Shown here piece by piece: positions 9,296-10,060 of a stretch of 51,248 bases of DNA; the stretch's first letter is position 1, and each line of letters opens with the position of its first letter. Source of the stretch: a virus; IMG/VR virus record IMGVR_UViG_3300042517_000782, positions 1 to 51,248 of that record, one strand, 5' to 3'. The translations under genes and the position numbers were made by a program. The notes under the pieces were generated by a model. That model saw only the letters and a program-made list of their open reading frames with translations, was not told the origin of the DNA and ran no database searches.

Positions 9296-9613
9296 ATGCT
9301 CTCTACTGCTTATAGATTGCGTCTTGAAGAGATTTGCGATAGGATAGTGAGACAAGAAGAAGTAAGTCTAGAAGATATTATCTGGGCAGAAAAACTTGCC
9401 AAGACAAATAGATCTGCAGCAACAATCTTAAGGCAAGCAAGAAGACGTGCTTCTAATCCAGATATGCAAGAGGGAAGTATGGATGATTTTTTAAATCAAC
9501 TTGATTTAGGAGATCCAGATCCCTCAAATCATAAGAATAGATTTGGTGGAGTTGATGACATTATTGATTTCTTTTCTGGGGATAAACCAGATGACTGGAG
9601 ACAAAGAGATTAA
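9296..9613 (+). CDS. Conserved cyanophage hypothetical protein (105 aa)
   Basis: The first 60 residues look helical (YRLRLEEICDRIVRQEEVSLEDIIWAEKLA), followed by an Arg-rich patch RQARRRA and an acidic C-terminus that ends DDWRQRD. GGAG at 9284-9287 is the ribosome-binding site. The mix of basic and acidic segments could indicate a nucleic-acid or RNA-polymerase partner, but this is speculative. No family is recognised. Confidence 0.7.
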   Translation: MLSTAYRLRLEEICDRIVRQEEVSLEDIIWAEKLAKTNRSAATILRQARRRASNPDMQEGSMDDFLNQLDLGDPDPSNHKNRFGGVDDIIDFFSGDKPDDWRQRD

Positions 9614-9655
9614 AACTGTATCCGATTTTACAAAAGTATTCTTATAGATATAACA

Positions 9656-9709
9656 CGTTCATTTGCTATTCGCAAATAGCAAACGGAAGTAGGGAAACCG
9701 AAGGAACGC
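9656..9709 (+). ncRNA. Glutamine-II riboswitch aptamer (downstream-peptide RNA motif)
   Basis: The sequence carries the conserved glutamine-aptamer strings CGTTC, CGGAAGTAGG and CCGAAGGAACG in the right order. P1 is CGTTC (9656-9660) with GAACG (9704-9708). P2 is a perfect 9-bp stem, TTTGCTATT (9662-9670) with AATAGCAAA (9675-9683), closed by CGCA. A short third pairing can form from GG near 9693 and CC at 9698-9699. The downstream-peptide and glnA RNAs are established glutamine binders of cyanobacteria and cyanophages, and the former usually precede short ORFs, as here. The consensus match is from memory. Confidence 0.9.
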
Positions 9710-9710
9710 A

Positions 9711-9730
9711 CTTTTACAATAGTAAAGGAG
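9711..9730 (+). promoter_or_regulatory. Shine-Dalgarno-sequestering hairpin (riboswitch expression platform)
   Basis: CTTTTAC (9711-9717) pairs with GTAAAGG (9722-9728) around an AATA loop, with one T.G wobble. The 3' arm overlaps the ribosome-binding site AAAGGAG (9724-9730), located 7 nt before the ATG at 9738. The hairpin begins one base after the aptamer, so ligand binding could plausibly change ribosome access. The direction of control is not evident. Confidence 0.7.
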
Positions 9731-9737
9731 CACCCTA

Positions 9738-9896
9738 ATGTCTAAAGCAACTTATAGAGGATGTCAGTATAATACTGATGTCCCAAAGGAAGAATATCGT
9801 AAGTGGTATTCACAAACACATTCACCAGCACATCCACAAAATACATATCGTGGAGTTTCTTACCGTCCCTGTAATAATCAGGAGGTTGCAAAGTGA
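9738..9896 (+). CDS. DUF4278-type small protein under the glutamine riboswitch (52 aa)
   Basis: The protein begins MSKATYRGCQYNT and repeats the pattern later as NTYRGVSYRP. The two YRGxxY motifs are typical of the cyanobacterial/cyanophage DUF4278 family, small proteins of unknown function. It is downstream of the glutamine aptamer and served by the AAAGGAG site. The stop overlaps the next tiny ORF (GTGA). The regulatory context suggests a role linked to host nitrogen status, which is inference. Confidence 0.85.
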   Translation: MSKATYRGCQYNTDVPKEEYRKWYSQTHSPAHPQNTYRGVSYRPCNNQEVAK

Positions 9897-9994
9897 ATAC
9901 TTATTTTGTTAGATATCTTAAGAATAAGGATAGAAAGGAAAAACTTCTTAAGATCGCACAAATTAATATGGCAAAGCAACCTCAAGTTGCTTGA
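9893..9994 (+). CDS. Tiny ORF (33 aa), GTG start
   Basis: A GTG codon overlaps the DUF4278 stop as GTGA and follows an AGGAGG site at 9880-9885. The basic peptide begins MNTYFVRYLKNKDRKEKLLKI and ends QPQVA, directly before a terminator. Coupling, the strong ribosome-binding site and the placement before the terminator support translation. No family is recognised. Confidence 0.55.
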   Translation: MNTYFVRYLKNKDRKEKLLKIAQINMAKQPQVA

Positions 9995-10000
9995 TAATTC

Positions 10001-10030
10001 AGAGGGGGACTTGACTTCCCCTCTTTTTTT
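10001..10030 (+). terminator. Rho-independent terminator
   Basis: AGAGGGGGA (10001-10009) pairs with the complementary run ending TCCCCTCT at 10017-10024 (one G.T pair), followed by seven T residues to 10030. It closes the riboswitch-controlled two-gene unit. Confidence 0.88.
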
Positions 10031-10060
10031 GTGTAAAATTCGGGAAACACTATTCAACAT

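Follow-up and report, generated by a model that had tools for sequence, protein, structure and literature searches.

A predicted type-1 glutamine riboswitch with a Shine-Dalgarno-masking hairpin in a phage genome, and a proposed nested double form in its relatives

The riboswitch locus and its genes

The element lies among T4-like cyanophage genes, including those for glutaredoxin, S-adenosylmethionine decarboxylase (speD) and thyX, in the window, that is, the whole stretch of 51,248 bases that was analysed. The order speD - riboswitch - DUF4278-like gene - thyX/phoH also occurs in phage S-PM2 (there td - phoH). A group I intron (RF00028, 71 bits) is located near the window start, at 172-417. 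The features of the unit are as follows.

9656-9660, +: P1 5' strand CGUUC (RF01739 alignment)
9656-9660/9704-9708, +: P1 pairing (RF01739 alignment)
9662-9683, +: P2 hairpin of 9 bp (9662-9670/9675-9683) with a 4-nt loop (RF01739 alignment, fold)
9684-9691, +: J2/3 core CGGAAGUA (RF01739 alignment)
9692-9699, +: P3, GG-GAAA-CC (9692-9693/9698-9699; RF01739 alignment)
9700-9708, +: J3/1 GAAG (9700-9703) and P1 3' strand GAACG (9704-9708; RF01739 alignment)
9709, +: C9709, equivalent of C60 (sequence), predicted to pair with G9686 if bound and with G9730 of the Shine-Dalgarno (SD) sequence if free
9708-9731, +: SD-masking hairpin, the expression platform (folds; kept in relatives)
9725-9730, +: Shine-Dalgarno AAGGAG, with ATG 9738 7 nt downstream (sequence)
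9738-9896, +: DUF4278-like gene of 52 aa with two YRG motifs (Pfam, PHROG, S-PM2 p192)
9893-9994, +: ORF of 33 aa with a GTG start and a 4-nt overlap with the DUF4278-like stop
10001-10031, +: intrinsic-terminator-like hairpin and T tract at the end of the unit (scan)

In a cmscan search of the window, RF01739 (Glutamine, type 1, glnA leader) matched the + strand at 9654-9712, scoring 53.7 bits where the gathering score is 35 bits (E value 4e-9 over the window, 1.7e-11 over 201 bases). Within 9600-9800 this was the sole Rfam match at E<1; RF01704 (glutamine-II, Downstream-peptide) gave none, ruling out the glutamine-II class to which the first-pass annotation had assigned the aptamer. The P1 and 9-bp P2 described there are recovered by the alignment, and the core strings CGGAAGUA and GAAG are present as well, but as parts of a type-1 aptamer. 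Also, the linchpin bases are intact, with G9686 and C9709 in the places of G23 and C60; in type-1 aptamers with glutamine bound, G23 is inserted into P1 and pairs with C60 (PMC11477058). A string scan for a nested element of the kind described below recovered no second set of GGAACG/CGUUCA elsewhere in the window.

The downstream gene had been announced as DUF4278; its 52-aa product scores 22.0 bits against Pfam PF14105 (DUF4278; E value 2e-4), just below the cut-off of 25.3 bits, and is referred to here as DUF4278-like. The relatives encoded downstream of such elements reach between 19 and 30 bits, one of them over the cut-off. The protein also matches PHROG 5049 (E value 3e-9) and shares 43% identity with S-PM2 p192. 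The coupled 33-aa ORF had been missed in the first pass, and an ORF of 27-33 aa that shares this 4-base overlap occurs in all 8 relatives inspected. By eye, it resembles a lysine-rich helix that precedes the YRG domain in other cyanophages, in which lineage helix and YRG domain are fused in one protein (MNTLNLIRKQIEKAAALHDAQI...YRG), and we infer that the window has this product in split form, as two ORFs.

Although DUF4278 had been described as lacking an assigned function, a context for it exists, since the domain spans the N-terminal portion of IF17, a glutamine-synthetase inactivating factor whose mRNA is under the control of a type-1 glutamine riboswitch in Synechocystis; both type-1 and type-2 glutamine riboswitches activate DUF4278 genes in cyanobacteria (PMC6316151). 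The window protein covers the DUF4278 part only of IF17, the GS-inhibiting part of which is C-terminal. By analogy with this factor, the target of the product may be the glutamine synthetase of the host, or nitrogen regulation.

Shine-Dalgarno masking and the proposed switch

The existence of an SD-masking hairpin between aptamer and gene, proposed in the first pass together with a phage glutamine riboswitch, is corroborated by folding, the function of the aptamer (RF01739, 53.7 bits) being a prediction. The 33-nt platform folds with -8.1 kcal/mol and a z score of -3.58, none of 200 shuffles being equally good, and the whole leader with a z score of -3.15. The hairpin core (9711-9717/9722-9728) is lengthened by the pairs G9708-C9731 and C9709-G9730, the mask pairing of the window being GCACUUUUAC/GUAAAGGAGC. 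In the free fold this extended hairpin has a probability of 0.98 and P1 one of 0.01. In the free ensemble, 6.2 kcal/mol are needed to open AAGGAG, versus 4.1 kcal/mol with P1 and the linchpin formed, and formation of P1 costs about 3.5 kcal/mol in the model, an amount that the ligand would supply.

Since the ligand-free hairpin takes C9709, the partner of G9686 in the bound aptamer, a translational ON switch is the best model. Without glutamine, P1 would be open, and G9708 (the last P1 base) and C9709 (the linchpin base) would lengthen the hairpin over the SD, the DUF4278-like gene being poorly translated. With glutamine, P1 would shut and C9709 would be pulled into the G9686-C9709 linchpin, leaving the anti-SD helix two G-C pairs shorter and the SD cheaper to expose. 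The output would be a small two-part product, the YRG/DUF4278 protein and the coupled 33-aa helix ORF, made in a nitrogen-rich infected host. As the 7-bp core of the hairpin persists alongside P1 in the model, the predicted switching effect is modest (~2 kcal/mol). A candidate anti-anti-SD pairing noticed by eye (AAAAGU 9633-9638/ACUUUU 9710-9715) was discarded, its 5' strand not being conserved in relatives.

Masking of the SD recurs in related elements. In 72 unique C60-type platforms that precede YRG proteins, the SD has a mean pairing of 0.77 versus 0.53 in shuffled sequences, and the anti-SD strand starts at or beside C60 in most of them, the mask taking several sequence forms (in nested relatives, for example, CUCUUUA/UAAGGAG). 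In the C23-G60 lineage the SD is masked by J3/1, with CUGAAG facing CUUCAG, UUUCAG or CUUUAG, and CUAAAG facing CUUUAG; the two strands change in step (CUGAAG/CUUCAG, CUAAAG/CUUUAG), and six of six pairs form in 52 of the 71 elements with a readable platform. When 67 G60-type platforms were folded from J3/1 onward, SD pairing was 0.41, below the shuffle value of 0.56; there the anti-SD lies partly in P3, outside the folded stretch.

Control of translation by a type-1 glutamine riboswitch that works as an ON switch is the likely reading of the window element. That the aptamer binds glutamine and works instead as an OFF switch, or through transcriptional control rather than SD exposure, is doubtful. 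The coexistence of the hairpin core with P1 in the model would allow the bound RNA to stay masked; however, no terminator was found between the aptamer and the DUF4278-like gene, the masking strand competes with parts of the aptamer in both platform lineages, which fits an ON switch, and those cyanobacterial homologues that have been characterised act as ON switches (PMC6316151). Less probable still is a decayed or retuned, glutamine-blind aptamer with a hairpin that fixes a constant low translation rate: conserved core bases vary in related phage elements and glutamine binding by the window copy is a prediction, yet this copy reaches 53.7 bits with P1, P2, P3, both junctions and the linchpin bases intact. 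A scan revealed no clear sigma-70 promoter upstream of the window copy; one seems to be present ahead of several relatives.

Double elements and embedded genes in the relatives

Close relatives of the window protein were collected from 80 loci, 22 of which carry a single aptamer, as the window does, and 56 a double element, 2 being unclassified. Further double elements were obtained by a pattern scan of viral contigs, and 103 distinct ones were analysed. Rfam gives two separate weak matches in such elements and tandem glutamine riboswitches are on record (PMC2864571; PMC9481103, which counts 157 doublets), both of which favour either locally paired tandem aptamers lying side by side or a glutamine-II-like pseudoknot accompanied by another aptamer. 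The pairing between positions 23 and 60 argues against these arrangements. Locally linked pairs both fail in 29 of the 103 elements, and in one more (L167) just a G-U survives, whereas 102 of the 103 have two Watson-Crick pairs if position 23 of each half is joined crosswise to position 60 of the other. The local linchpins also have a covariation score of 0, failing in 7 of 13 aligned rows. C-class elements permit both local and nested linchpins, and the P1 strands are invariant in the aligned set, most of them having been fixed by the search patterns, so that P1 is uninformative either way.

Complementarity between the two P3 strands, one on each side of the inner unit, is maintained through joint changes (AGUCG/CGACU, AGUCA/UGACU, GGUCG/CGACU, GGACGG/CCGCCC, AGCCGACG/CGCCGACU, GGCUAACG/CGUUGAGCU). 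Covariation in this shared P3 spans inserts as long as about 200 nt or more; in 13 distinct rows, 3 pairs are changed on both sides, with a covariation score of 0.192 versus 0.068 in shuffled alignments (0 of 500), the rows being related and the counts those of non-independent events. Slid controls show almost no P3 covariation, and nested folds are better than local ones by 2.4-4.8 kcal/mol in five examples. At position 1 of P3, S-SRM01 has C-G in place of A-U, a change that abolishes the stop codon of the embedded ORF. In the 8-bp form of P3, positions 3 and 6 are mostly C.A and A.C, position 3 being swapped to A.C in two elements.

Because the linchpin pairs are swapped and the shared P3 covaries, the "tandem" aptamers of most relatives are best read, from their sequences, as an outer type-1 aptamer whose P3 holds another aptamer in circularly permuted form; side-by-side or pseudoknotted units are unlikely. 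The inner junctions are shorter than those of either known glutamine class, and the inner unit is a candidate aptamer. Strand exchange between the nested and local arrangements is possible. On balance, the window copy is probably a simple member of a family that is more commonly built as a nested double aptamer with a shared P3, swapped linchpins and an inner P2 loop that is filled in about two thirds of the distinct elements by a long insert, nearly always an ORF.

Double elements best read as nested are found in S-PM2 (L002, 3956-4051), where an embedded ORF is absent, and in S-SM1 (L327), L284, L181 and others. By blastn, a nested stretch of 326 bases matches 388 records, at least 80% of the stretch being covered in 121, and the nested element is matched by hundreds of cyanophage records. 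The C-class signature was recovered from 3 contigs in a genome scan, none with a cyanobacterial label. The cyanophage element also occurs on contigs filed elsewhere, L324 (Nonlabens xiamenensis NODE_6, 188 kb), L325 and L326 (TMED129 MAG); on L324 there are genes, named by eye, for a primase-like protein and for subunits of ribonucleotide reductase, and the three elements are probably phage DNA within those assemblies. In another contig (L165, 1413-2714) a wcaG RNA and a tRNA gene cluster lie immediately 5' of the nested element.

The inner P2 loop exceeds 80 nt in 67 of the 103 double elements, and P2 is retained in all 67, with 4-9 bp and changes on both sides (0.7 bp in an internal control). 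An ORF in the expected frame with its stop exactly at J3/1 is present in 62 of the 103, and 61 of these 62 have an AUG 9-16 nt past the start of CGUUC, the remaining one (L249) having been called from a late GTG alone. An ORF end at a UAG in P2 was dismissed, as the frame continues to a UGA or UAA in J3/1. The frame begins just past or within the P2 5' strand, and the loop of the inner P1 contains GGAG, a possible SD; in the C-class this hinge GGAG is present in 41 of 55 elements with an insert versus 0 of 18 without one (p 9e-9, uncorrected for kinship). Substitutions in the inner ORF prefer third codon positions in most length classes.

The inner protein belongs to PHROG 504 ("T4-like GC 430" in S-SM1) and has relatives in 311 phage records, while no PHROG family was found for the P2a insert of the L197 type. 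The embedded ORFs, among them S-SM1 SSM1_203 (L327, 1501-1671) and those of L329, L330 and many IMG/VR loci, are annotated as ordinary hypothetical proteins. A different ORF is contained in the outer P2 of 26 elements, and the downstream gene has a YRG motif in nearly all double elements where it is readable. Folding of the nested aptamer would silence the embedded gene and expose the downstream DUF4278 gene, suggesting a reciprocal two-gene switch in which glutamine would turn the former off and the latter on.

Comparison with known glutamine riboswitches

Glutamine riboswitches are already known before DUF4278 genes in cyanobacteria, others are reported from cyanophages, and the window copy adds one more member. 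It points to phages that track the nitrogen status of their infected hosts and tune small proteins akin to one part of an inhibitor of glutamine synthetase, which would offer a testable route by which viruses control nitrogen metabolism. The nested, gene-bearing form of the relatives is the more surprising result; it sits in well-known cyanophage genomes (S-SM1, S-SM2, Syn1, S-RIM2), and an aptamer nested in another by circular permutation, with protein genes in its loops, would, if true, constitute a new riboswitch architecture. The literature searched contains no nested or ORF-bearing glutamine riboswitch; a prior mention in Klahn 2018 or Ames 2011 is possible.

The gifB leader of Synechocystis (type 1, RF01739) has in common with the window P1/P2/P3, the core strings, the linchpin bases and a site before a DUF4278-type protein. 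The window copy differs from it in lying in a phage genome, in its short SD-masking hairpin that runs from the linchpin base, and in its free-standing DUF4278-like protein with a coupled 33-aa ORF. The type-2 glutamine riboswitch (RF01704) of marine picocyanobacteria shares with the window the ligand class and small downstream DUF4278 proteins, but its model has C at 23, G at 60 and the P1 3' strand inside the P3 loop, and leaves the window unmatched at E<1. Methylophage Melnitz also encodes a type-1-like glutamine aptamer, there tied to tmRNA and not to DUF4278 (PMC9004378). Finally, the tandem riboswitches on record (PMC2864571, PMC9481103) resemble the relatives of the window in having two glutamine aptamer-like units per leader; those on record are described as tandem, whereas the second unit of these relatives is best read as a circularly permuted one lying within P3 of the first, and its P2 loop often holds an ORF.
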